Source: Gemmatimonadota bacterium (lineage in GTDB: Bacteria > JAAXHH01). From it: 64,000 nucleotides of DNA. Position numbers and translations under genes: made by a program. Below the pieces are notes generated by a model, which was given only the letters and a program-made list of their open reading frames with translations, did not search any database and was not told the DNA's origin. Location: the NCBI GenBank assembly GCA_009835325.1, contig VXWP01000082.1, positions 1-64,000 of the forward strand, given 5' to 3'. Shown one piece after another: positions 17,674 through 34,222 of the stretch (its first letter is position 1; every line of letters begins with the position of its first letter).

Positions 17674-18789
17674 ATGCGCCGCCTCGTCCTCCCCTTCCTC
17701 GGCCTGCTGCTCGCCATCTGCCTGCTGTTGTTCGACCTGACCATTCTGTGGTCGGGGCGCACCGCCATACGCCCCGTGATGCAGAAGGGTGTCGCCCTGG
17801 GGGTGTTCAAGGCCTCGGAGGGGATGTCCTACTACCGGTCCTCCCTGGAAGACATCGCGGCCCTGGGCGCTTCCCACCTTTCCGTCCCCGTATTCATCCT
17901 GCAGGATTCCGTGGATTCCGTCACCCATTTCACCCGCCCGTCGGACGGCGCCACGGGGGAACAGCACGAACGCGTGATCCGGGAAGTCATCGACTACGCC
18001 CACCGGATGGGGTTGAAGGTCATGCTGACGCCCATCGTCAACCTGGACCGCCCCGGCGAGAGGGAATGGCGTGGCACCATAGCACCGGGCGATTGGGAGG
18101 CGTGGTTTGAAAGTTACCGCGGAATGGTCCGCCATTACGCCCGGCTGGCCGCGGAAATGGATGTGGAGTATCTGAGCGTGGGTACCGAGCTCGTATCGGC
18201 CGAAAGGTTCACCGGGCAATGGAGGGAGACCATCGCCGAGGTGCGTGGGATCTTCCCGGGACAACTCACCTATTCCGCGAACTGGGACCGGTACGACCGG
18301 GTCGCTTTCTGGGACGACCTCGACTTCGCGGGGATATCGGCTTACTACGAACTATCGGAATCCGAGGATCCCACGGTGGAACAACTGGTCTCCGCCTGGC
18401 GTCCGGTCAAGGCGGACCTGCTGCGTTGGCAGGCCCGGTGGAACAAACCCCTTTTGTTCACCGAAGTCGGATACATGAGCCAGTCCGGTGTCGCCGCCCA
18501 TCCGTGGAACTACGTGTCGGAGAAGCCCCTCGATCTGGAGGCGCAGCGGCGTTGTTACGAGGCCCTGCGGCTGGCCTGGGAAGGGGAAGAGCGGTTTGCC
18601 GGCCTGTACCTTTGGATCTGGGAACCGGACAAGCGGGGTGGGCAGGACCGGGGATACAATTTCGCGGGTAAACCCGCGGAAGAGGTCGTTCGCGACTGGT
18701 ACCACAGCGTGCCGGACAACGCCAACGTCCTCGATTACGCCGTCAACGGCATGGAACGGTTTCTGCGGTCCCTGCGGCAGGGACTATGA
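17674..18789 (+). CDS. GH113-like glycoside hydrolase, membrane-anchored or exported
   Basis: 371-aa (beta/alpha)8-barrel hydrolase resembling family GH113 (beta-mannanase-like). Residues 5-27 form an N-terminal hydrophobic anchor or signal without a clear cleavage site. Candidate catalytic acids are Glu172 in SVGTEL (acid/base) and Glu264 in LFTEVGY (nucleophile), spaced as in clan GH-A. The early GVALGVF and YRSSLEDIAALGASHL segments match GH113 starts. ATG is one base after the kptA stop, so the two are co-transcribed. The final six bases overlap the convergent oxidoreductase gene. The polysaccharide target is unknown. Confidence 0.82.
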   Translation: MRRLVLPFLGLLLAICLLLFDLTILWSGRTAIRPVMQKGVALGVFKASEGMSYYRSSLEDIAALGASHLSVPVFILQDSVDSVTHFTRPSDGATGEQHERVIREVIDYAHRMGLKVMLTPIVNLDRPGEREWRGTIAPGDWEAWFESYRGMVRHYARLAAEMDVEYLSVGTELVSAERFTGQWRETIAEVRGIFPGQLTYSANWDRYDRVAFWDDLDFAGISAYYELSESEDPTVEQLVSAWRPVKADLLRWQARWNKPLLFTEVGYMSQSGVAAHPWNYVSEKPLDLEAQRRCYEALRLAWEGEERFAGLYLWIWEPDKRGGQDRGYNFAGKPAEEVVRDWYHSVPDNANVLDYAVNGMERFLRSLRQGL

Positions 18790-20712
18790 GGAGGCCGGCG
18801 CCGCGTGACCACCGTAGCCAAGGGTCTCCACGTCCCGGTGCAGGCGTTCCAGTACCCGGGACCTGACCTCTTCGAAGAGTTCACGGGTCAGGAAACGCAC
18901 ACCGGGCAGATCGCCCTTGCCCTGACCAATGAAGACGTCGGCCGGCATGTCGTATTCGTCCGGGGTGATCCCCTGTTTCTGCTCAAGGGCGAAACCCAGG
19001 ATATGGGCCCGGTAGGTGGCGTCCAACACCCGCTCGGCCGAGAAGGGCACCCCGAAGACGGACTCTATGCCTTCGCTGACCTGGTCCGGCGGGGCCATGG
19101 TGAACAGGCAGCCCCCGTGCAGGTCCTTGTTCACCATCTTCCAGCCTTCTTCGGTGATGTTGTGGACCCAGTAATCGGCGGAATCGGGCTTGCAGTCCGG
19201 GTCCATCACGTACAGCAGAAAGGTGCGCATGGACATGTGGCCGCCGGCCACGGCGAAGGGATAGCCCGGATTGGTCTGACCCAGGTAGGCGGAGAACTCG
19301 ACCCCCTTGGCATGCATGGCGAAGGCCTTTCCGCCGATCTCTTCGGCGATCGCCTGGACGCCCTTGCCGAAGAGAGGTTCGCGTCCGTAGGCGATATCCT
19401 CCTTGAGTCGCCGGGCGCCTTCCGCGTCGCCGAAGGTGACGCCGCCCGCGACGGTTCCGTTGCCCCGGGCATTGTAATCCATCAGGAAGGAGATCACGAC
19501 GTTGGCCGAAATGGTATCGAACCCCAGGTCGTCGTCCAGCCGGGCAAGCTCCAGGTTGTCATGGGGATCCAGAATGCCCAGGTTGGCGCCGGACAGTTCC
19601 ATGGGTTCGAACTCGAATCGGCCCAGGTACTCTCCGTGGTTCCTTCGGGCCTTACGCCAGTCGGGATCCTTGCCGCCTTCCGGGACGTCGTAGAAGTCCT
19701 GGTGGCAGGTAATCTGGCAGCCGTAGCAACTCTTGTCGATGACGATGAAATCGTCCGATTCCCGCATGGTCTCCAGGTGTACGGGGACGGCTACGTTCTC
19801 GCCGGGCGGCTCGAAGTTTCGGTAAGGCAGCACCCCGAATCCGTCGAGTATCTTGCTGTTCTTGCCCGTGCCGCCCAGCCCGTTCCGGTTGTGCGGATGG
19901 CGGTATCCCCGGCTCTGCTCACCTCTTCCGATCTCGTTGTTGATGACCTTGAGCCGGTCATCGCCCTTGCGGTAATAGTCGTTCTCCGCCCTGGCCACGA
20001 TGCCGAGGATGTTCTTGGAACCGAGCACGGATCCCATGCCGAGCCGGCCCGCGAAACGCCACTTGTCTTCCCCGCTCATGAGCTGTTCCTGGGTCGACCC
20101 CACCACGGCCGCGTACCAGACCGTTTCCCAGTGTTCGCCGGCGGGCCCGAGGACGGCGAAATGGGCGTGGTAGTTCTTGTCGCCATCGTTGTAGCGCTCG
20201 TCCAGGTAGACCATCTTGTCCCTGACCCGTGCGCCGACCAGGTGTGCGGGGGCTTCGACCAGGGTAATATCGGGGCCGTCGTCGATCTGCCTGATCACCA
20301 GAAAGCTCGGTACGGCCGCGCGGCCGGTGAGGATCAGGTCGCCGATGCCGGTATAGGAGAACTTGCGGCCGAAACTCCCGCTCATGGCCGACCATACGGG
20401 CATGGGCATGCCGGCCCGGGTGCGCTTCAGGGGAGAATAGCCGGAGAAATACGCCCGCAGACCGGTCATGAACTGCGTGCCGGTGAAGCAGCCCGTGTTG
20501 ATGACCAGCGGGACATCCGGCGCAAAGGGATCGCTCACGTCGTAACCCGAAAGGATCTTGAAGGACCGGCCGATGCCGCCCAGGAAATCCATGTCGTCCT
20601 GGACGCGGTGGTCCTCGACGCTCAACTTTCGGCCTTCGGCCAGGTCGTATTCGATGCGGGTATAGCAATAATCGGTCACGTCTCCCGGCGTGCCGTTTAC
20701 GGGTTTCAGCAC
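18784..20712 (-). CDS. aor: Aldehyde:ferredoxin oxidoreductase family protein
   Basis: Tungsto- or molybdopterin oxidoreductase of 642 aa that oxidises aldehydes to acids with ferredoxin as acceptor. Domain 1 (about residues 1-215) binds the bis-pterin. The [4Fe-4S] cysteines are CYGCQITC (CxxCxxxC, around residues 328-335) plus the later Cys in DLHGGCLFT (around 541), the same layout as Pyrococcus AOR. The N-terminus lacks the common GKILRVDL start but has YTRIEYDLAEGRKL in its place. The start is a GTG with a GAGGGGGA ribosome-binding site. The pterin-synthesis genes moaD and moaE lie elsewhere in the window. Substrate aldehyde unknown. Confidence 0.9.
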   Translation of the reverse strand: MLKPVNGTPGDVTDYCYTRIEYDLAEGRKLSVEDHRVQDDMDFLGGIGRSFKILSGYDVSDPFAPDVPLVINTGCFTGTQFMTGLRAYFSGYSPLKRTRAGMPMPVWSAMSGSFGRKFSYTGIGDLILTGRAAVPSFLVIRQIDDGPDITLVEAPAHLVGARVRDKMVYLDERYNDGDKNYHAHFAVLGPAGEHWETVWYAAVVGSTQEQLMSGEDKWRFAGRLGMGSVLGSKNILGIVARAENDYYRKGDDRLKVINNEIGRGEQSRGYRHPHNRNGLGGTGKNSKILDGFGVLPYRNFEPPGENVAVPVHLETMRESDDFIVIDKSCYGCQITCHQDFYDVPEGGKDPDWRKARRNHGEYLGRFEFEPMELSGANLGILDPHDNLELARLDDDLGFDTISANVVISFLMDYNARGNGTVAGGVTFGDAEGARRLKEDIAYGREPLFGKGVQAIAEEIGGKAFAMHAKGVEFSAYLGQTNPGYPFAVAGGHMSMRTFLLYVMDPDCKPDSADYWVHNITEEGWKMVNKDLHGGCLFTMAPPDQVSEGIESVFGVPFSAERVLDATYRAHILGFALEQKQGITPDEYDMPADVFIGQGKGDLPGVRFLTRELFEEVRSRVLERLHRDVETLGYGGHAAPASS

Positions 20713-22969: not shown

Positions 22970-24466
22970 GTGAACGTCATCTGCGTCTGCCTGGACACCT
23001 TTCGCGCCGACATCATCGGCCCGGGCAGGAAGTACAGCCACGCGTACACACCCAATCTCGACGCGTTTCACCGCAGCAGCATCCGGTTCAACCGCGCCTT
23101 CGGAGAGGGACAGCCCACGCTTCAGGTACGCCGGGCGCTGTTCACCGGGATGCGAAGTTTCCCGTGGCGGTACAACTTCGATCGGCGCGGACACTGGCAC
23201 CATGCGCCCGGTTGGCACAAGATCCCGCCGGAGCAGGACACGATCGCGGAGGTCCTGCTGGAACGGGGGTACCTTACTGCCCTCATCGCCGACACGTACC
23301 ACATGTTCAAGCCCACCATGAACTTCTCCCGGGGGTTCGCCCATCTGGATTTCGTGCGGGGACAGGAATCGGACAACTGGAAGAGTGGCGATCCGAAACT
23401 GGTCGAAGCGCAACTCGCCCGGCACGTGAGGCAGCCCGTGGACATGTTGAAGCATGCGGGACTGGTGAACTACCTGCTGAACCAGCGCCACAGGAAGGAT
23501 AAGGACGACTACCAGTGCGCCCGGGTGTTCAATTCGGCCAGCGCGTGGCTCGCGGACAACCATACGGCGGGGCCCTTCTTCCTGTGGGTCGACAGCTTTG
23601 ATCCCCATGAGCCCTGGGACCCGCCGACGGAATACGCCGACCGGTATTTCGAGCACGACGGTCTCGATTTCATCGTACCCGGTCCCGCATACGCCCGTGA
23701 CGGATCAGGCAGACCAGGCGGATCAGGCGGACCAGGCGAGCCAGGCGGACCAGGCCAACCGGGCGGTCCGTCGGAAGCGGAACTCCGTCGCATCGAGGCG
23801 CTGTACCTGGGGGAGGTCACCCTGGTGGATGAGTACGTGGGCCGGTTGCTGAATGCGGTGGCGGACCTGAATCTCCTCGATGACACCCTGATCGTGATCC
23901 TGTCGGACCATGGTACCCAGTTGCTCGACCAGGGTAGTTTCGGCAAGGGACCAAACGAACTGCATCCCTTCAATACCCAACTCAACCTCATGATGCGCGT
24001 ACCCGGCGGTCCGACAGACGTGGACGTGGACGCCTTCGTGCAGAACCACGACCTCATGCCCACGCTGCTCGGACGGCTCGGGGTACGGGCGGACTGGACG
24101 GACGGCGAGGACCTGTGGCCGCTGGTCACGGGTGAGAAGGCCGCCGTCCGTGATCGGATCGTGACCGGGTGGGCGTCCTTCATCACGGGCAACGCCGTGG
24201 GCCGGGCTAGCGTGCGGGACGACCGCTGGAACTTCTGCACGTCGGTGGGCTACGAAGACGCGGACGGCGATGAACTCTTCGACCTCGAGCGCGATCCGGA
24301 AGAGCGGAGGAACGTCGCCGCGCAGCATCCAGACGTCGTCGCGGCGCGCCGAAGCGACGTGGAGGCGGTCCTGGGCCAGCCCCTCCCCGGCCGGATGGTG
24401 GAAGTATGCGATCCCGCCCCGGCGCCCATGACGCACTGGCTGGAGCAACGGTTGCGGAGTAGCTGA
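22970..24466 (+). CDS. Sulfatase-fold hydrolase with Thr at the nucleophile position
   Basis: Alkaline-phosphatase-superfamily protein, 498 aa, starting at a GTG with GGAG five bases upstream. The metal ligands look intact: CLDTFRAD at residues 7-14, the DPHEPWDPP His region and LIVILSDHGT (Asp-His). At the catalytic motif, sulfatases read C/S-x-P-x-R then TG eleven residues on; here the motif is TLQVRRALFTG with Thr50 at the Cys position and no Pro. A formylglycine cannot form from Thr, so classical sulfatase chemistry is unlikely; Thr is the nucleophile in NPP-type phosphodiesterases of this superfamily. A Gly/Pro-rich insert (residues about 245-265) is encoded by a 9-bp repeat. No signal peptide. 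Confidence 0.88.
   Translation: MNVICVCLDTFRADIIGPGRKYSHAYTPNLDAFHRSSIRFNRAFGEGQPTLQVRRALFTGMRSFPWRYNFDRRGHWHHAPGWHKIPPEQDTIAEVLLERGYLTALIADTYHMFKPTMNFSRGFAHLDFVRGQESDNWKSGDPKLVEAQLARHVRQPVDMLKHAGLVNYLLNQRHRKDKDDYQCARVFNSASAWLADNHTAGPFFLWVDSFDPHEPWDPPTEYADRYFEHDGLDFIVPGPAYARDGSGRPGGSGGPGEPGGPGQPGGPSEAELRRIEALYLGEVTLVDEYVGRLLNAVADLNLLDDTLIVILSDHGTQLLDQGSFGKGPNELHPFNTQLNLMMRVPGGPTDVDVDAFVQNHDLMPTLLGRLGVRADWTDGEDLWPLVTGEKAAVRDRIVTGWASFITGNAVGRASVRDDRWNFCTSVGYEDADGDELFDLERDPEERRNVAAQHPDVVAARRSDVEAVLGQPLPGRMVEVCDPAPAPMTHWLEQRLRSS
23701..23773. repeat. In-frame 9-bp degenerate repeat
   Basis: About eight degenerate copies of the unit GGCGGACCA encode a collagen-like Gly/Pro-rich insert between two folded parts of the sulfatase-fold protein. 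Confidence 0.7.
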
Positions 24467-25401: not shown

Positions 25402-26421
25402 ATGTCAGTAGGGGTTTGCGCGTACTCGTTCAATACGGGATATGACGCCTTTGAGCTCATGGACATGGCCGTCGAACACGGCCTCGCCGGCGTGGAGTTT
25501 CCACCCGACGACTGCCTCCCCGATCTGTCCCCGGCCTCGCTGGAGCGGACCCGTGCCCGGGCCGCGGAGAGCGGGTTGTACGTCGTGGCGGACGGCGGCC
25601 AGGTCGAGGGCGAAATGTTGCGGCGCTTGATCCCCGCAGCCGCTGGGCTCGGTGCTTCGACATTGCGCGTGGTTATGAGCGGCGTCCTCGGCGGTGACCG
25701 CCGACCGCTGTCGGGCCGGTGGAACGCCCATCTCGCCGCGTGCAGGGATATCCTGCGCGAGGCGCTGCCCCTGGCCGAGGAACACGGGGTGACCATCGCG
25801 GTGGAGAACCATTCGGACGCCACGTCCCACGACATGCGCTGGCTTTGCGAAGAACTGGACAGTGCGTACATCGGCATCACGCTCGATGTGGGCAACGTGC
25901 TGGCGGTCTGCGAGGAACCCTTCGGATACACGGAACGCATCCTCCCTTACCTGAAGCATGTCCACCTCAAGGATTACACGATCCATCCGTCCGACGAGGG
26001 GTACCGCATCGCGCGGTGTTCGCTGGGCAGCGGCGTAGTCGACTACCCCGGCCTGCTTTCCCTGATCGACGGATACCGGAGCCAGCGAGGCCCGGCGGAC
26101 CAGTCCGGCCAGCCAGGATCGGAAGGACAGCGCGGCGGAGTAACGAAAACCATCGAACTGGGCGCCATCTACGCCCGGCACGTGCGCATGCTCATGGATG
26201 ACTACTGGGCGGAGTACCCTGATCGCGATATCAGGGACCTGCTGCCGTTTCTGCGGCTGTACTGGACCCACGTCCGCCCCGTCGGGGAAGACTGGCGTAC
26301 GCCCAGGGAGAAGGACGAATCCACCGAGGTCCTGAAGACATACGAGACGCGCGAGTTCGAAGAAAGCGTGGCCTATCTGAAGGAAATCGGAGCCGTACGG
26401 GCGGACTCCGGCACCTCCTGA
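25402..26421 (+). CDS. Sugar phosphate isomerase/epimerase (xylose isomerase-like TIM barrel)
   Basis: 339-aa AP-endonuclease-2/xylose-isomerase-like barrel. Typical features are the start VGVCAYSFN, AVEHGLAGVEFPP, GVTIAVENHSDAT with the Glu metal ligand, GITLDVGNVLAV with the Asp ligand, and KHVHLKDY with the His/Asp ligands. AGGAG sits six bases before the ATG. A polar Gly/Gln/Ser-rich insert (GQPGSEGQRGG, around residues 236-246) is likely a repeat-derived loop. It is paired with the upstream SDR, so the two may oxidise and isomerise one sugar. Confidence 0.88.
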   Translation: MSVGVCAYSFNTGYDAFELMDMAVEHGLAGVEFPPDDCLPDLSPASLERTRARAAESGLYVVADGGQVEGEMLRRLIPAAAGLGASTLRVVMSGVLGGDRRPLSGRWNAHLAACRDILREALPLAEEHGVTIAVENHSDATSHDMRWLCEELDSAYIGITLDVGNVLAVCEEPFGYTERILPYLKHVHLKDYTIHPSDEGYRIARCSLGSGVVDYPGLLSLIDGYRSQRGPADQSGQPGSEGQRGGVTKTIELGAIYARHVRMLMDDYWAEYPDRDIRDLLPFLRLYWTHVRPVGEDWRTPREKDESTEVLKTYETREFEESVAYLKEIGAVRADSGTS

Positions 26422-26490: not shown

Positions 26491-27549
26491 ATGAAGATGG
26501 AACGACTGGACCAATCCGACATGCACGGGTCCATCGGATCGATACCCGACCAGATGGAGGCGGCCTGGGAGGCCATGGCTGGTCGCACTTTCCCCGACGC
26601 CTGCCGGAATGTCAATCACGTGGTCCTGTCGGGCATGGGCGGATCGGCCCTGGGCGCCCACCTGATACAGGACGTCTTCTGCGACCGGCTGCGCGTGCCG
26701 GTGACCGTCGTATCCGATTACGCTGCGCCTTCGTGGATCAATGAACGGACCCTCATCGTGCTGTCCAGCTACTCCGGCGGCACGGAGGAAGTGATGGCTA
26801 TGGCGGAACACGGCCTGTCCAGGGGGATACCGATGATCGCCCTCACCACGGGAGGCGACCTGGAAGCGTTCGCCGGGCGCCATGGACTGCCGGCCGTGGT
26901 GTTCGGCAGCGAGCTCAACACCTGTGGGCAGCCGCGGATCGGCCTGGGCTACGCGGTCACCTACCTCCTGGCGATGTTCCGGCAACTGGGGTTCGTGGAG
27001 CTGGCCGAAACCGAGGTGACGAGCGCCCTCATGCTGCTCCGGGAGACCAACCCGGTTTACACTGCGCCCGGTGAGGAGAACCCCGCCCATGAGTTGGCCT
27101 CGGCCACGCGGGGGAAGTCGATCCTGATCATGGCTTCCGAGCATCTCACGGGCAACGCCCACATCCTGGCCAACCAGTGGAACGAGAACGCCAAGAACCT
27201 GGCCGTCTGGTTCGCCATACCCGAATTGAATCACCATCTGCTCGAAGGGATGACCCACCCTGCGGAGCATCGGGACGGACTCGCCGCCGTGCTCATCCAG
27301 TCCGGCCTGTACGATTCGCGCAACCGGCGCCGCCACGAGATCACCCGCACGCTGCTCGAGAAGCAGGGGATCGCGTGTTCCGTCGTTACGCCCCGGGGAG
27401 AGACGGCGCTCGAGCAGGCCTGCGACCTGCTCCTGCTCGGTACCTACGCCAGTTTCTACCAGGCGATTATGAACGACGTCGATCCGTCGCCCATACCCTG
27501 GGTCGATCAGTTCAAGCGACTGATGGCTTCGAGAGACGGTAAGGTATGA
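26491..27549 (+). CDS. Bifunctional phosphoglucose/phosphomannose isomerase
   Basis: SIS-domain isomerase of 352 aa related to the archaeal bifunctional PGI/PMI, interconverting glucose 6-phosphate, fructose 6-phosphate and mannose 6-phosphate. The first SIS domain contains VVLSGMGGSALGAHL and the phosphate-binding SSYSGGTEEV. The second has the ANQWNENAKN Glu and ELNHHLLEG, with the His and catalytic residues of the family. ATG 26491 is used, with ATG 26497 possible. The stop overlaps the next ORF as ATGA, so this glycolytic enzyme is translationally coupled to a large acyl-reductase fusion, an unusual pairing. Confidence 0.9.
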   Translation: MKMERLDQSDMHGSIGSIPDQMEAAWEAMAGRTFPDACRNVNHVVLSGMGGSALGAHLIQDVFCDRLRVPVTVVSDYAAPSWINERTLIVLSSYSGGTEEVMAMAEHGLSRGIPMIALTTGGDLEAFAGRHGLPAVVFGSELNTCGQPRIGLGYAVTYLLAMFRQLGFVELAETEVTSALMLLRETNPVYTAPGEENPAHELASATRGKSILIMASEHLTGNAHILANQWNENAKNLAVWFAIPELNHHLLEGMTHPAEHRDGLAAVLIQSGLYDSRNRRRHEITRTLLEKQGIACSVVTPRGETALEQACDLLLLGTYASFYQAIMNDVDPSPIPWVDQFKRLMASRDGKV

Positions 27550-30500
27550 GTGAAATTGTCACCTACCTGCGGGGAAAGACGCTGCTGATCACCGGTGCCA
27601 CCGGTTTCCTTGCGAAAGCGGTCGTGGAGAAGATCCTGCGGTGCGCCCCGGAGGTCGGCCGTATCTACCTGGTCGTCCGGGCCCGCCGGAGGAAAGACGG
27701 TACCACGCTGACGGCGCGGGAACGGGTGGAGGAAGAGATACTCCAGTCCGCCGCCTTCGCCCGGCTTCGCGAGACCCACGGCGATCGTTTCACTGATATC
27801 ATGCGCGCCAAAGTCCACGCCGTCGAGGGCGACCTTACCCTGGACCACCTCGGACTGGAACCGGACCTGTACCGCCGGCTCGCGGCGGAAGTCGACGTCG
27901 TACTCACCTGCGCGGCGTCCGTGACCTTCGACGAAGAAATCGACGCCGCGCTTCAGCTCAACACCCTCGGCGCGCGGCGCATGCTGGAATTCGCCAAATC
28001 GTGCGGCGACGCCACGCTGGTCCACGTCTCGACGGCCTACGTCAACGGCCAGACCAAGGGTCGCATACCCGAAGCCCCGCCCCGTCCGGACTGGTCCATG
28101 GCCCAGGAAATGGGGCGAAACAACGCGCCCTTCGACCTGGAACGGGAAATACGGGACATACTCGCCAGGGCGGATGAGATCCACGACGAATCCCGGTCGC
28201 CGGAACAGCAGGATCGTTTCAGGAAGATGGCGCTGCAGCAGAACCCGAACCCGACGCAGCGCTGGCTGGACGCCCAGATGGAGACTTTCCGCAAGCGCTG
28301 GCTCAAGGAACGGCTCATCGAGGAGGGCATGCGCCGGGGACAGCAGTGGGGGTGGCACGACAGCTATACCCTGACGAAGGCCATGGGCGAGCAGTTGATC
28401 GTCAAGCACCGGGGCGACCTGCCCACGGCCATCATTCGGCCGTCCATCGTGGAAAGCGCGCTGGTCGAGCCCGAACCGGGATGGATCGAGGGGCTCAAGG
28501 TGGCCGACCCGCTTATCGACGCGGTGAGCAAGGGGCGCCTGCCGGACTTCCCCGGCCAGAAAGACATGATCGTGGACATCATCCCGGTGGACATCGTGGC
28601 CAATACGACCCTGGCGGCCATGGCGCGCACAGCCCGGGAAGGCGGGATCGGCGTATACCACGTATCGACGGGCGACCGGAATCCCGTCCTCTTCCATCAG
28701 GCCTTCGAGCACTCATACGAGTACTTTCAAAAATACCCCCGCCTGAACCGGAACAACGAACCCATACCGATCCAGCGATGGACCTACCCGACGCTTGGCC
28801 AGTTCCGGCGCCGGTACAACCTGCGCTACGTCTACCCCCTGAACGCCGCGTTGTGGACGCTCAACCGCTTCACACGGATCACCCTGCTGAACAACCTGAA
28901 GCGCAGAATCGCCGTGATGCAGTCGGCGATCTCGCGGATGCTGTACTACGCCGCGATCTACAGTCCCTACACGTCCCTGGAATGCACCTTCGAGACGGAC
29001 CGCACGGTAAAGTTGCACGAAAGCCTGGATCCGGAGGACCGGCTGCTCTTCGACGGCGATGTCTCCAGGATCCACTGGAAGACGTATTTCCAGGAAATCC
29101 ACATCCCCGGCCTGAAACGCCACGTGCTGAAGACCGATGAGCCGAAGCCCGCGGTCACAGAAGAAGAGGAGGTGGCGGAACGGTCCGGGTTCGCCCAGGC
29201 CGGGGAGGACGCCCTGCCCCATCTCGATACGCTGACGGACATACTGGCCAAAAGCGCGGACATGTACGGAGACAAGACCGCGCTGCAGATGCAGCGGGAC
29301 GATGGCTGGATCCGCTATTCCTACAAGGACGTGTTCGCCCTGGCCGGGCACATCGGCTGGCAGTGGCGGTCCAGCGGCCTGCATCCGGGCGACCGGGTCC
29401 TGCTTTTCTCGGAGAACCGACCCGAATGGGGAATCGCCTGTTTCGCCGGGATGGTGGCCGGAGCCGTGCTCGTGCCCGTGGACCGCCGGTCGACGCCCCA
29501 GGAAGTCTGGCGCATCGCCCGGTTCACCGAATCGAGGGCCATCCTCTGCACGGAAGGCGGTCACGCATTGCTCACGGCGTCGGCGGAGGCCGGTGGCGCA
29601 CCGTCGCAGCCCGGTGGCGCACCGTCGCAGCCCGGCGGCGAACCGGCGGAGCCCGGCGGCGACGTCATGTTCTGGAATATCGAAAACCACGGACTGCCGT
29701 TCGACGCGCCGCAACGGCCCGCGACGCCTGTCACCCTGAACGAGGAGCCGCCGCCCTGGGCGCCGGTGGAACCCGATTCTCCGGCCGCCATCATGTTCAC
29801 CCGGGGCATGGCGGCCGAATCCCACGGTGTCGTGCTGACCCATCGGAACTTCGTTTCCAACCTGCTGTCCCTCGCCGAGATCCTGCGCGCCTACCGGACC
29901 GACCATTTCCTGTCCCTGCTGCCCATGAGCCAGGCCCTGGAGTTCACGGGCGGATTTCTCATGCCCTTCTACGCGGGCGCGACCATTACCTATACCACGT
30001 CGGTACGGCCGCGGTCCCTGGTCGGCCTGATGGATGAAACCGGGGTCAACTGCCTGATCGCGGCACCCCGGTTATTCGGGCTGTTGCATGGGTCACTGCG
30101 ACAGACGGCCGAAAAAAACGGCGAAGGCGTCGTTTCCCGCATGCGGCTGCTGGTCAGCGGAGGCGGCACGCTCGAATCGGATCTGTACCACGCCTACCGG
30201 GAGATCGGCCTGACGATCCACGAGGGATACGGGCTCACGGAAGCGGCCCCGGTCGTGACCGTAAATCCCATGGACCGAAGCAAGCCCTCCTCCGTCGGCG
30301 TGGCCCTGCCGGCGGTAGACGTTGAAATCCAGGCCCCCGACACGGATGGCAACGGCGAGATCATCGTGCGCGGGAACAACGTCATGCAGGGGTACTACCG
30401 AAACCCCACGGCGACGGAGAACCGCCTCCGCGGCGGGTGGCTTCACACGGGGGACATCGGGCGCATCGACCGGGACGGTTATCTGTATATCTCCGAACGC

Positions 30501-31289
30501 CTGGGCCAGGCAACCGGGTCCGCCGGAGCCGTAGTGTCCGCCGGGTCTGCGCAAGGAAGCCCAGGCGGACCGGAAGGAGCGGCCGGTCGGCGGTCGGGAC
30601 GCGCCGGTAGTGGCCGGGAACACGGCGCGACGGCCTTCTTCGACGTGGACGGCACCATCGTGGACGCGACGATCGTACACTACTACGCTTTTTACCGGAC
30701 GTGGGGGTATTCCGCCCCGCGGCGTCTCCTCTGGACCATCGGATTCCTGCCGAAAGTCCTCTACTACATCGTACTGGACAAGATCAGCAGGAGCCGTTTT
30801 ATCCAGTCTTTCTACCGGCAGTACCGGGGTTTCGGTCGCGGGGAATGCGTATCGAGGAGCGAGCAGCTTTTCGAGAAAGTCATGCGGCCGCGCATGTTCG
30901 CCGGGGCCGTCGATCGCATTCGGGCGCACCAGCAACGGGGCGAGCGCGTGGTCCTGGTCACCGGGTCCCTGGATTTCGTCATGGAGCCGCTGGCGGAATA
31001 CACCAAGGCGGACGACCTCATCGCCCTGTCCATGAAGGAAGAGGACGGCCGGCTGACCGGCGAGACGGAAGGGCCGCCTATCGGTGACGAGGCGAAGGCC
31101 CGAATCGTCCGGGACTACGCCGAGCGCCGCGGCATCGACCTGGCCCGGTGCTATGCCTATGCCGACAGCAGTTCGGACGAGCCCATGTTGCGCGTGGCAG
31201 GGCATGCCGTCGCCGTAAACCCCGGCGGGAAGCTGAAGAAGGCCGCGGAAGCCGGCGGATGGGAAGTCGTGCACTGGACCCATGTATGA
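27546..31289 (+). CDS. Fusion: fatty acyl reductase / AMP-binding domain / HAD-IB phosphatase
   Basis: 1247-aa three-part protein. Residues 1 to about 510 are a fatty acyl-CoA reductase of the male-sterility SDR type (NAD loop GATGFLAK at 17-24, catalytic YTLTK around 275, and the FAR C-terminal region). Residues about 555-1000 are an AMP-binding (ANL) domain with GYGLTEAAP and GWLHTGDIGR, but its phosphate loop reads FTRGMAAESHGVVLTH (751-766) rather than TSGTTGxPK, and the C-terminal lid with the A10 Lys is missing. Residues about 1027-1247 are a HAD-IB phosphatase (DVDGTIVD, VLVTGS, YADSSSDEPM). It starts in ATGA overlap with the isomerase gene and ends in ATGA overlap with an alcohol dehydrogenase. 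A role in fatty alcohol or ether-lipid formation is inference. Confidence 0.85.
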   Translation: MSEIVTYLRGKTLLITGATGFLAKAVVEKILRCAPEVGRIYLVVRARRRKDGTTLTARERVEEEILQSAAFARLRETHGDRFTDIMRAKVHAVEGDLTLDHLGLEPDLYRRLAAEVDVVLTCAASVTFDEEIDAALQLNTLGARRMLEFAKSCGDATLVHVSTAYVNGQTKGRIPEAPPRPDWSMAQEMGRNNAPFDLEREIRDILARADEIHDESRSPEQQDRFRKMALQQNPNPTQRWLDAQMETFRKRWLKERLIEEGMRRGQQWGWHDSYTLTKAMGEQLIVKHRGDLPTAIIRPSIVESALVEPEPGWIEGLKVADPLIDAVSKGRLPDFPGQKDMIVDIIPVDIVANTTLAAMARTAREGGIGVYHVSTGDRNPVLFHQAFEHSYEYFQKYPRLNRNNEPIPIQRWTYPTLGQFRRRYNLRYVYPLNAALWTLNRFTRITLLNNLKRRIAVMQSAISRMLYYAAIYSPYTSLECTFETDRTVKLHESLDPEDRLLFDGDVSRIHWKTYFQEIHIPGLKRHVLKTDEPKPAVTEEEEVAERSGFAQAGEDALPHLDTLTDILAKSADMYGDKTALQMQRDDGWIRYSYKDVFALAGHIGWQWRSSGLHPGDRVLLFSENRPEWGIACFAGMVAGAVLVPVDRRSTPQEVWRIARFTESRAILCTEGGHALLTASAEAGGAPSQPGGAPSQPGGEPAEPGGDVMFWNIENHGLPFDAPQRPATPVTLNEEPPPWAPVEPDSPAAIMFTRGMAAESHGVVLTHRNFVSNLLSLAEILRAYRTDHFLSLLPMSQALEFTGGFLMPFYAGATITYTTSVRPRSLVGLMDETGVNCLIAAPRLFGLLHGSLRQTAEKNGEGVVSRMRLLVSGGGTLESDLYHAYREIGLTIHEGYGLTEAAPVVTVNPMDRSKPSSVGVALPAVDVEIQAPDTDGNGEIIVRGNNVMQGYYRNPTATENRLRGGWLHTGDIGRIDRDGYLYISERLGQATGSAGAVVSAGSAQGSPGGPEGAAGRRSGRAGSGREHGATAFFDVDGTIVDATIVHYYAFYRTWGYSAPRRLLWTIGFLPKVLYYIVLDKISRSRFIQSFYRQYRGFGRGECVSRSEQLFEKVMRPRMFAGAVDRIRAHQQRGERVVLVTGSLDFVMEPLAEYTKADDLIALSMKEEDGRLTGETEGPPIGDEAKARIVRDYAERRGIDLARCYAYADSSSDEPMLRVAGHAVAVNPGGKLKKAAEAGGWEVVHWTHV
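29589..29663. repeat. In-frame 21-bp repeat
   Basis: Two near-identical copies and one diverged copy of a 21-bp unit beginning GGTGGCGCACCG encode the GGAPSQP-type linker within the AMP-binding part of the fusion protein. Confidence 0.8.
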
Positions 31290-32521
31290 AAGCCGTACAA
31301 TACATCAAGAGCGTACCCCGGTACCTGTTTGTCCGCACCCTCGGCCACCGTCGGCCCGGCCCGGCCACCGGCGCGCTGTCGTGCATCCGCATGGCAGACG
31401 TCGATCCCCCCGCCCTTCCGACGCCTGAATGGATGCGGGTCAGGCCGCTGCTGAGCGGGATCTGCGGATCGGACCTTTCCACCATACGGGCGAAGGGCAG
31501 CCCCTATTTTTCGCCCATGATCTCGGCACCATTCGTCCTGGGCCATGAAGTGGTGGGCGAGGTCGAGGAGACCGGCTCGGCAGCCGGGAGCGTTTCCCGG
31601 GGAGACCGCGTGGTGATCGAACCCGGCCTCTGCTGCGCCGTCCGGGGCATCCACCCTCCTTGTCCGTCGTGCGCAGCAGGCGATTTCGGCCTGTGCGAGA
31701 TGGTCATGCACGGAGACATTTCCCCAGGGATACAGACGGGGTACTGCAGGGACACGGGCGGTGGATGGAGTACGTCCCTGGTGGCGCACCCCTTCCAGGT
31801 CCACCGGGTGCCCGATCGGCTTTCCGACGAGGAAGCGGTCCTGGTCGAGCCTTTCAGCTGCTGCCTGCACGCCGTGCTCAAGTCCTTCCCCGGTGACGAA
31901 GAGACCATCCTGGTGATCGGCTGCGGCGCCGTCGGACTTCTCACCATAGCGGCCGTCCGGGCACTGGGCGGGAAGTGCCGCATCCTCGCCGCCGCACGTT
32001 ATCCCCATCAGCAGACCCTGGCCGCCGCCCTCGGCGCCGACCGCGTCATCGGCCGGGGCGAAGACCTCTACGATACGGTCAGCGAAGTGACGGGAGCGGA
32101 GATCCACCGGCCCGAGATCGGGCGGCCCGTATTCATCGGCGGCGTGCACCGGACCTTCGACTGCGTCGGATCGTCGCGTACCATCGACGACGCGCTGCGG
32201 CTGACCGGCTCCGGCGGCGCTGTTACCGTCGTGGGCATGCCGGGCATTCCTTCCGGTATCGACTGGACGGCGGTGTGGTACAAGGAATTGAAGGTGCAGG
32301 GAGCCTACGCCTACGGGACGGAGAAGCACGAAGGCCGGTCCGTCCGGACCTTCGACCTGGCCATGGAACTGATCGCGTCGGGGAAGGTCGGCCTGAAGCC
32401 TCTCGTGACGGACCTCTTCCCGCTGAAGGAATACCGGAAGGCCATCGGCCGGGCCCTGGAAGCCGGCCGGCACGGCGCCGTCAAGGTGGCCTTCGACCTG
32501 AGAAACGAGCCGGGGCCGTAA
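31286..32521 (+). CDS. Zinc-dependent alcohol dehydrogenase (MDR family)
   Basis: Medium-chain dehydrogenase/reductase of 411 aa. It has the catalytic-zinc region SGICGSDL, GHEVVGEV with the His-Glu pair, a Cys-containing loop (CPSCAAGDFGLC) resembling a structural-zinc lobe, and the nucleotide loop VIGCGAVGLL (around residue 212). The ATG overlaps the stop of the fusion gene as ATGA. In that context it could oxidise or reduce the fatty alcohol or aldehyde of the neighbouring reductase, but this is inference; threonine- or polyol-type substrates remain possible. Confidence 0.88.
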   Translation: MKAVQYIKSVPRYLFVRTLGHRRPGPATGALSCIRMADVDPPALPTPEWMRVRPLLSGICGSDLSTIRAKGSPYFSPMISAPFVLGHEVVGEVEETGSAAGSVSRGDRVVIEPGLCCAVRGIHPPCPSCAAGDFGLCEMVMHGDISPGIQTGYCRDTGGGWSTSLVAHPFQVHRVPDRLSDEEAVLVEPFSCCLHAVLKSFPGDEETILVIGCGAVGLLTIAAVRALGGKCRILAAARYPHQQTLAAALGADRVIGRGEDLYDTVSEVTGAEIHRPEIGRPVFIGGVHRTFDCVGSSRTIDDALRLTGSGGAVTVVGMPGIPSGIDWTAVWYKELKVQGAYAYGTEKHEGRSVRTFDLAMELIASGKVGLKPLVTDLFPLKEYRKAIGRALEAGRHGAVKVAFDLRNEPGP

Positions 32522-32578: not shown

Positions 32579-34222
32579 GTGCCCTACCTGAAGTTGTTGC
32601 ACGCAAAAGACCCGCAAGTCCATGTCCTGTCGAGGGATGTCACTACCCTGGGCCGTTCCGGCGAGGCCGACATCGCCATAGGCGGCGACCGGGGCGTTTC
32701 GAAGCTTCATGCGCGTATCGAAACGGAGGCGTCGGGCTTCATGATCGCGGACCTGGGCAGCCGGAACGGGACCTATATCAACGATCATCCGATCGGCGGC
32801 AAGCCCGCCCCGCTGCTGCCGGGTGACCGTATCCGGCTCGGCCGATCGGTTTTCGTCTTCGAGGAGGGGGAACCCGAAGAGCGCACCGATGATCTGCAGG
32901 CGCCGGCCTCTCTCTTCCGGGCGGACCAGTTGCCCTACACCATGGCGGGCGGCACACCCGCCGTGAGGCCCGAGGATACCGACGGACGGCTGCTGAAACT
33001 CACGGAATTGAGCAAGGAAGTCATGACGGCCCGCAGTGAGGCCGAATTGGGTGCACTCGTGACCCGGAGCCTGCTGGAATGGATGGAGGCGGACTGCTGC
33101 GCGATCGTCCATCCCATGGAAACAGGGGAAGGATACGACTTCGAGATCCAGACGCTGGCCTCCCGGTCCGGATTCGAAGACCGGTCGATTTCGATCAGCA
33201 CGACGGCGGTGAAACAGGCCCTGGAAAACCGGATGGCCTCGATCACCTCGAACGCCCTGGGGGACGACCGGTTCAGGGACCGGCAGAGCGTAATCGTCCG
33301 CCGGCTGGTGTCCATCCTGTGCGTGCCCCTCTGGCATGAAGACCGGGTGTTCGGCCTGCTATACCTGGATTCCGCGGATCCGGCCGTGGAGTTTACCGTG
33401 GACCATCTCGGCCTGTCCAGCGCGGTGGCCAACCTGACCGCCATCAAGACCGACAACCTGCGCCTCTTCGACGCCGCGGTGGCCAAGAGCGCGTTGGACA
33501 AGGAACTGGCCCTGGCCGGCGAGATCCAGGCCGGACTGCTGCCGGGGGAAAGCTATGCCTTCAACACGCTGGCCTGCGCGGGCACCCATGTCTCCTGCGA
33601 GGAGATCGGCGGGGACTACTACGACTTCATTCCTTATGGAGAGGACGTCCTGACGGTGACGATCGCCGACGTCACCGGACACGGCCCTTCCAGCGCGCTG
33701 CTCATGGTCGCCTGCAAGACCATGCTGACCACCCTCATCGACATCGGCGTACCGCTGGTGGAACGCGTCGGCAGGCTGAACGAGTACATACTCCATCATT
33801 CCTCGGTGAGCCAGTTCATCACCTTTTTCCACGCCGATATCGATACACGGGCGAATACCCTGCGGTACTGCAACGCCGGGCACAACCCGCCCATGCTCCT
33901 TTCGCAGGATGGACCGGTTCAGAAGCTGCATTCAGTCGCGCCGCCGCTGGGGATCGCCGACGTTGCCTTTGAGTTGGAATCTGTACGGTTCGAACCCGGG
34001 ACCAAGCTGGTCATGTATACCGACGGCGTCACCGAGGCGGCCAACGCCGACGGCGAACTGTACGAAGAACAAAGACTCGAATCCCTGCTAACGAAGCACA
34101 GTGGCCAGGATGCGGGAGCATTGAAGGACACCGTCATGGCGGCGGTATTCGGGTTTTCAGCGGGATCCAGGCAATGCGACGACGTCACCCTGGCCGTGGT
34201 GGAGCATACCGGCACGCAGTAG
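32579..34222 (+). CDS. FHA-GAF-SpoIIE (PP2C) phosphatase
   Basis: 547-aa signalling protein starting at a GTG with GGAG seven bases upstream. Residues about 15-95 are a forkhead-associated phosphothreonine-binding domain (TLGRSGEAD, SKLHARI, DLGSRNGTYIN). Residues about 130-295 are a GAF sensor domain. Residues about 325-545 are a SpoIIE/RsbU-type serine phosphatase with EEIGGDYYDF, TIADVTGHG and MYTDGVTEAAN metal-binding aspartates. Such proteins usually control an anti-sigma-antagonist partner switch; no partner gene is adjacent. It lies 57 bp after the dehydrogenase gene and may be the last gene of that operon. Confidence 0.93.
   Translation: MPYLKLLHAKDPQVHVLSRDVTTLGRSGEADIAIGGDRGVSKLHARIETEASGFMIADLGSRNGTYINDHPIGGKPAPLLPGDRIRLGRSVFVFEEGEPEERTDDLQAPASLFRADQLPYTMAGGTPAVRPEDTDGRLLKLTELSKEVMTARSEAELGALVTRSLLEWMEADCCAIVHPMETGEGYDFEIQTLASRSGFEDRSISISTTAVKQALENRMASITSNALGDDRFRDRQSVIVRRLVSILCVPLWHEDRVFGLLYLDSADPAVEFTVDHLGLSSAVANLTAIKTDNLRLFDAAVAKSALDKELALAGEIQAGLLPGESYAFNTLACAGTHVSCEEIGGDYYDFIPYGEDVLTVTIADVTGHGPSSALLMVACKTMLTTLIDIGVPLVERVGRLNEYILHHSSVSQFITFFHADIDTRANTLRYCNAGHNPPMLLSQDGPVQKLHSVAPPLGIADVAFELESVRFEPGTKLVMYTDGVTEAANADGELYEEQRLESLLTKHSGQDAGALKDTVMAAVFGFSAGSRQCDDVTLAVVEHTGTQ

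Follow-up and report, generated by a model that had tools for sequence, protein, structure and literature searches.

The stretch of DNA analysed here (the window; 64,000 nucleotides, positions 1 to 64,000 of contig VXWP01000082.1) comes from a 3.68 Mb metagenome assembly of a Gemmatimonadota bacterium (GCA_009835325.1). It carries a single open reading frame of 1247 aa that joins a fatty acyl-CoA reductase (FAR), an AMP-binding domain of the ANL superfamily without its C-terminal lid, and a HAD-IB phosphatase (Table 1). The reductase is complete: NAD_binding_4 and Sterile domains are both present, together with the Rossmann and YxxxK motifs that define the family, and it matches the fatty acyl-CoA reductase of PDB entry 7eoz (E=2.8e-83). 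The Pfam AMP-binding model is covered in its entirety (residues 568-951), and the AMP-binding C-terminal family has no Pfam match in the 1247-aa protein; past residue 986 there is no lid, and low-complexity sequence links the domain to the phosphatase. The latter matches the Pfam HAD family at residues 1030-1216, scores 133.5 bits with NCBIfam TIGR01490 (HAD-IB; cut-off 98.3) and has all four catalytic motifs. The sequence-only reading of this DNA had described the three-part frame, a degenerate phosphate loop, a lid replaced by a low-complexity linker and an intact DxDGT motif. All four points were borne out, the frame by the reading frame itself, Pfam, TIGR01490 and ten genomes of the genus, and the loop by comparison of TRGMAAESHG with the canonical TSGTTGxPKG.

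Table 1. Features of the fused gene and of its neighbours (window coordinates)
Feature	Position	Strand	Detail
Whole fused coding sequence, FAR-ANL (lidless)-HAD, derived from elbD + elbB on sequence	27546..31289	+	1247 aa
FAR reductase domain NAD_binding_4, residues 15-354	27588..28607	+	Pfam E=1e-66; GATGF and YxxxK motifs
FAR C-terminal Sterile domain, residues 447-529	28884..29132	+	Pfam
ANL N-subdomain only, residues 568-986	29247..30503	+	Pfam AMP-binding; fold search finds ANL enzymes
Hypervariable G/P-rich repeat within ANL domain, residues 676-704	29571..29657	+	TRF 29581-29662
Degenerate phosphate loop TRGMAAESHG, residues 752-761	29799..29828	+	alignment with relatives
A4 position, Gln796	29931..29933	+	His in the full-length ElbDs compared
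A5 motif YGLTE, kept, residues 895-899	30228..30242	+
A7 motif WLHTGD, kept, residues 965-970	30438..30455	+
Low-complexity linker where ElbD has lid, ACP and acyltransferase, residues 987-1025	30504..30620	+
HAD-IB phosphatase domain, residues 1030-1247	30633..31286	+	FFDVDGT, TGS, K and DSSSD intact
bact-PGI_C (SIS) isomerase gene, upstream	26491..27549	+	stop overlaps fused-gene start as ATGA
Zn-alcohol dehydrogenase gene, downstream	31286..32521	+	start overlaps fused-gene stop as ATGA
FHA-GAF-SpoIIE phosphatase gene	32579..34222	+	neighbour conserved across the genus and also in G015

The comparison collection held 16 genomes of the window's phylum, 12 of them from its genus. The same fused frame (1197-1260 aa) was intact in 10 of these 12; contig ends break the gene in G009, and an assembly of 520 contigs, G005, gave no match to it. 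That the genomes are metagenome assemblies leaves room in principle for a misassembly or a pseudogene. The fusion recurs in ten separate assemblies, however, with an open frame and a low ratio of nonsynonymous to synonymous substitution rates (dN/dS; ~0.1 in all three domains), which makes this explanation negligible. Public relatives of the genus go under the labels Candidatus Latescibacterota or Gemmatimonadetes; their isolate names (IRC1, SB0665 and Plut among them) suggest that these uncultured bacteria are sponge-associated.

The origin of the fusion can be read from related genomes. In G014 and G015 (same order) and G054 (another phylum), the same reductase fronts a longer protein, ElbD, which continues with an ANL domain with lid, an acyl carrier protein (ACP) domain and an acyltransferase; a separate HAD gene follows directly downstream on the same strand. 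The ACP and acyltransferase domains were confirmed in the ElbDs of G013 and G014. In Myxococcus xanthus, elbD encodes FAR, acyl-CoA synthetase, ACP and acyltransferase domains, elbB in the same operon encodes a HAD-like protein, and most of the ether lipid depends on ElbD (PMC9131029). The protein of the genus aligns with ElbD up to the ANL hinge (residue 986), then enters the linker, then the phosphatase that is a separate ElbB-like gene in the relatives. No ElbD-like ACP-acyltransferase was found in the genus genomes, where the best matches were separate PlsC-like genes of ~250-310 aa with ~30% identity. One in-place deletion of ~450 codons that fused elbD to elbB would be the simplest account. 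Synteny and sequence place the gene at the orthologous locus, and the N-terminal FAR of ElbD is present; the ANL lid, the ACP and the AGPAT-like acyltransferase are missing. We conclude, on sequence grounds, that the fused protein is a derived descendant of elbD and not an ElbD by architecture.

The sequence-only reading had also called the fusion unusual. This stands insofar as a scan of named genome contigs, with search patterns that reach close relatives only, found it in this genus alone; its parts, on the other hand, are not an arbitrary set, being the front half of ElbD and the neighbouring ElbB-like HAD. Across 85 genomes of G054's phylum, the listed reductase frames were full-length ElbDs or a FAR with the ANL-ACP-acyltransferase in a gene of its own; each HAD listed was likewise a separate gene, of ~227-291 aa. 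The split form occurs in several of them (G064, G066, G069, G105, G112), with a FAR gene of ~540-610 aa and a second gene of ~870-930 aa, the size of an ANL-ACP-acyltransferase. Among 195 genomes of G043's phylum (probably Myxococcota), FAR frames were mostly ~1470-1560 aa. Shorter frames were considered as similar fusions: four of those checked reach the end of their contig, and one that is complete (L193, G303:C1), a FAR-ANL protein of 1341 aa with lid, matched neither the HAD nor the acyltransferase query. Within this partial survey, the fusion looks restricted to the genus.

Two genomes of the phylum show related states. In G012, from another genus of the same family, the reductase gene ends where the ANL domain would begin, a stop codon intervenes, and the HAD starts at once as a separate gene, followed by the Zn-dehydrogenase, in the same conserved gene order; the whole ANL module is gone. 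The acyl-loading half would therefore have been shed twice, or once with a second loss, as read from one assembly only. The closest full ElbD, that of G013, lies in a different genomic place. G013 (L050:8492-12790, L170:1468-3432) is the only genome of the phylum to encode a true AGPS, which scores 527 bits against the mammalian enzyme; no ElbB-like HAD was detected in G013, the reverse of the window's genus.

The ANL part departs from an adenylating enzyme at several diagnostic positions. Phosphate loops are canonical in G043's phylum (TSGTTGxPKG), mostly TMGTTVEAKG in G054's phylum and TKGTxVDPRG in the full ElbDs of the window's phylum, and TRGMAAESHG in the genus. The loop is thus already altered in ElbDs that keep the lid, so its erosion began before the lid was lost; lid loss, from which the sequence-only reading argued, was not the first event. 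All ten copies lack, or have in altered form, the phosphate loop, the A4 His, the A8 hinge and the whole lid with its A10 Lys, so adenylation has very likely been lost. The same reading had proposed that the domain binds acyl groups rather than adenylating them; the second half of this claim agrees with our results, and acyl binding is a possibility. It had also pointed to structure prediction as a check on the loss of the C-domain. An AlphaFold model of residues 541-1247, built on a shallow alignment (mean predicted local distance difference test score 61.6), is usable for the ANL part and not for the HAD, with low confidence in the phosphate loop, linker and HAD. It fits an ANL N-subdomain: N-domain-only FACL13 crystals reached a template modelling score of ~0.8 (target-normalised), and full ANL enzymes mostly 0.6-0.7. 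The model thus supports an ANL N-subdomain fold.

Could the domain nevertheless still activate fatty acids, through a tolerant phosphate loop or a lid provided by another protein? The retained A5 (YGLTE) and A7 (TGD) motifs speak for it. Against this, the Thr/Gly/Lys pattern of the loop is lost, the A4 His has become Gln, hinge and lid are absent from every copy, and the protein has no ACP to load, which makes continued activation quite improbable. A half-reaction enzyme of the PtmA2 kind, which would take up an acyl-adenylate formed by another protein, has a precedent in the ANL pair PtmA1/PtmA2, reported to split the two half-reactions (PMC6594144); the mobile C-terminal domain that such non-adenylating ligases use for the thioester step, the lid, is absent here, and we regard this option as more improbable still.

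An inactive relic, retained only so that the FAR-HAD polypeptide folds and heading for loss as in G012, deserves more weight. The stepwise erosion of the loop ahead of lid loss would suit it, as would the excision of the whole module in G012. Site counts also speak for a relic. When sites invariant in the genus were set against those invariant in G013, G014 and G015 (G013 and G014 for the FAR), the branch to the genus had fixed 31 changes in the ANL core against 115 unchanged sites, and 20 against 258 in the much longer FAR (Fisher p=5.8e-5). Changes concentrate in the phosphate loop, which had been chosen for testing beforehand as a claim of the sequence-only reading: 6 of 8 sites changed at residues 753-760, compared with 25/239 elsewhere (p=5.8e-5). 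Within the genus, however, dN/dS (Nei-Gojobori) is 0.097 for the ANL core, no higher than for the catalytic FAR (0.10-0.13) or the HAD (0.13), while the adjoining linker, a true spacer, is near-neutral at 0.82; these pairwise values from ten related assemblies are rough, and the need to fold is by itself a constraint on sequence. The G/P-rich repeat inside the domain varies in length across the genus, with a dN/dS of 0.38. The low value of the core argues against free decay, and the A5, A6 and A7 motifs are mostly conserved. We conclude that purifying selection acts on the ANL core as strongly as on the reductase and that the core has some role, although dN/dS does not tell which; a mere passenger is accordingly unlikely, if well short of negligible.

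The fused gene overlaps its neighbours on both sides by ATGA and therefore lies inside a likely operon, in the order SIS isomerase, fused gene, Zn-alcohol dehydrogenase and then FHA-GAF-SpoIIE phosphatase. The genus keeps the order TIM barrel-SIS-elbD-HAD-Zn-dehydrogenase-FHA, and fragments of G014 and G015 preserve it piecewise. Several enzymes of the window carry hypervariable G/P/S/Q-rich inserts: a sulfatase (23701-23766), the TIM-barrel gene (25402-26421, near residues 226-250) and the ANL domain (29581-29662). Each has a single such spot, whose length and sequence differ from one species of the genus to another, in an enzyme otherwise ~90% conserved, and the insert is missing from the more distant TIM homologue of G014. 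The low-complexity linker before the HAD fits this habit of repeat inserts. An aldehyde ferredoxin oxidoreductase family gene lies at 18784-20712 on the reverse strand; a link to fatty aldehydes is only a thought.

Our preferred reading, to which we give a probability of about 0.6, is that an elbD-type gene was shortened in place and fused to elbB, yielding a protein whose FAR reduces acyl-CoA and whose ANL remnant is non-adenylating. The FAR module would produce a fatty aldehyde or alcohol from acyl-CoA that a full-length acyl-CoA ligase, encoded separately, provides; ligase-like frames of ~550-584 aa are present in the genus genomes, so the acyl-CoA can come from there. The ANL remnant may be a scaffold, or an acyl- or nucleotide-binding domain, that holds FAR and HAD together, the HAD would take the phosphate off a lipid or glycerol-phosphate intermediate, and the alcohol or aldehyde may be a substrate of the co-translated Zn-dehydrogenase. 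Family membership gives the reductase chemistry; we infer what the product is, which substrate the HAD uses and what the remnant does, the product probably being an alkyl-ether lipid precursor made without AGPS. A more speculative version, which we hold as doubtful, would give the lidless ANL domain a genuinely new function, as a ligand sensor or acyl-chain chaperone (for acyl-CoA, acyl-AMP or a nucleotide) that gates or channels between reductase and phosphatase in an AGPS-independent ether-lipid route.

Several observations weigh against the shortened-ElbD reading and its ether-lipid product. G012 lives without the ANL module, which is hence dispensable somewhere. The genus genomes that were searched yielded neither AGPS nor CarF: PF02913 matches there, tried as AGPS, look like glycolate/lactate-dehydrogenase-type proteins, and CarF/PEDS1 (PF10520) was found only in G043. 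Published work cautions that having an elbD homologue does not prove that ether lipids are made (PMC11868695), and the effect of an elbB mutant in M. xanthus was ascribed to polarity (PMC9131029). Wax synthase PF03007 was not found in the window's phylum, which speaks against a wax-ester role.

The steps of the ElbD route from fatty acid to alkyl ether lipid are not yet settled (PMC9131029). Here the acyl-loading half of ElbD appears to have been deleted naturally while reductase and phosphatase were retained, and a sister genus does without the ANL domain too. If the genus still makes ether lipids, the ether bond would not require the acyl-loading half, and FAR plus HAD would be the minimal set, which would amount to a direct test of the pathway. 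The homologues also form a natural series from an active adenylation domain to a conserved, apparently non-catalytic one.

Compared with known systems, the protein shares with ElbD of M. xanthus, whose homologues are present in G043, an N-terminal FAR followed by an ANL module and a HAD gene, elbB, in the cluster (PMC9131029), but it has lost lid, ACP and acyltransferase, its ANL motifs are disrupted and the HAD has become part of the same chain. The full ElbDs of G013, G014 and G015, from the same order and family, have 59-71% identity to it in the FAR and 50-60% in the ANL and a phosphate loop that is likewise altered, and the G014 and G015 fragments have the same neighbouring genes as the fused locus; they differ in keeping lid, ACP and acyltransferase, with the HAD as a separate gene or, in G013, not found. 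The FAR and HAD pair of G012 occupies the same locus, with the HAD directly after the FAR and the acyl-loading half lost, and differs in the complete removal of the ANL domain and the stop codon between the two genes. Nonribosomal peptide synthetase-like elbD clusters from Acidobacteriota and Poribacteria metagenome-assembled genomes likewise have an elbD-type core gene in sponge symbionts, but their cores keep thiolation and acyltransferase domains (PMC9426513). AGPAT-HAD fusions of bacterial storage-lipid clusters also join a HAD (PF12710) to a lipid enzyme; there the partner is an acyltransferase, here it is a FAR-ANL protein (PMC10351704).
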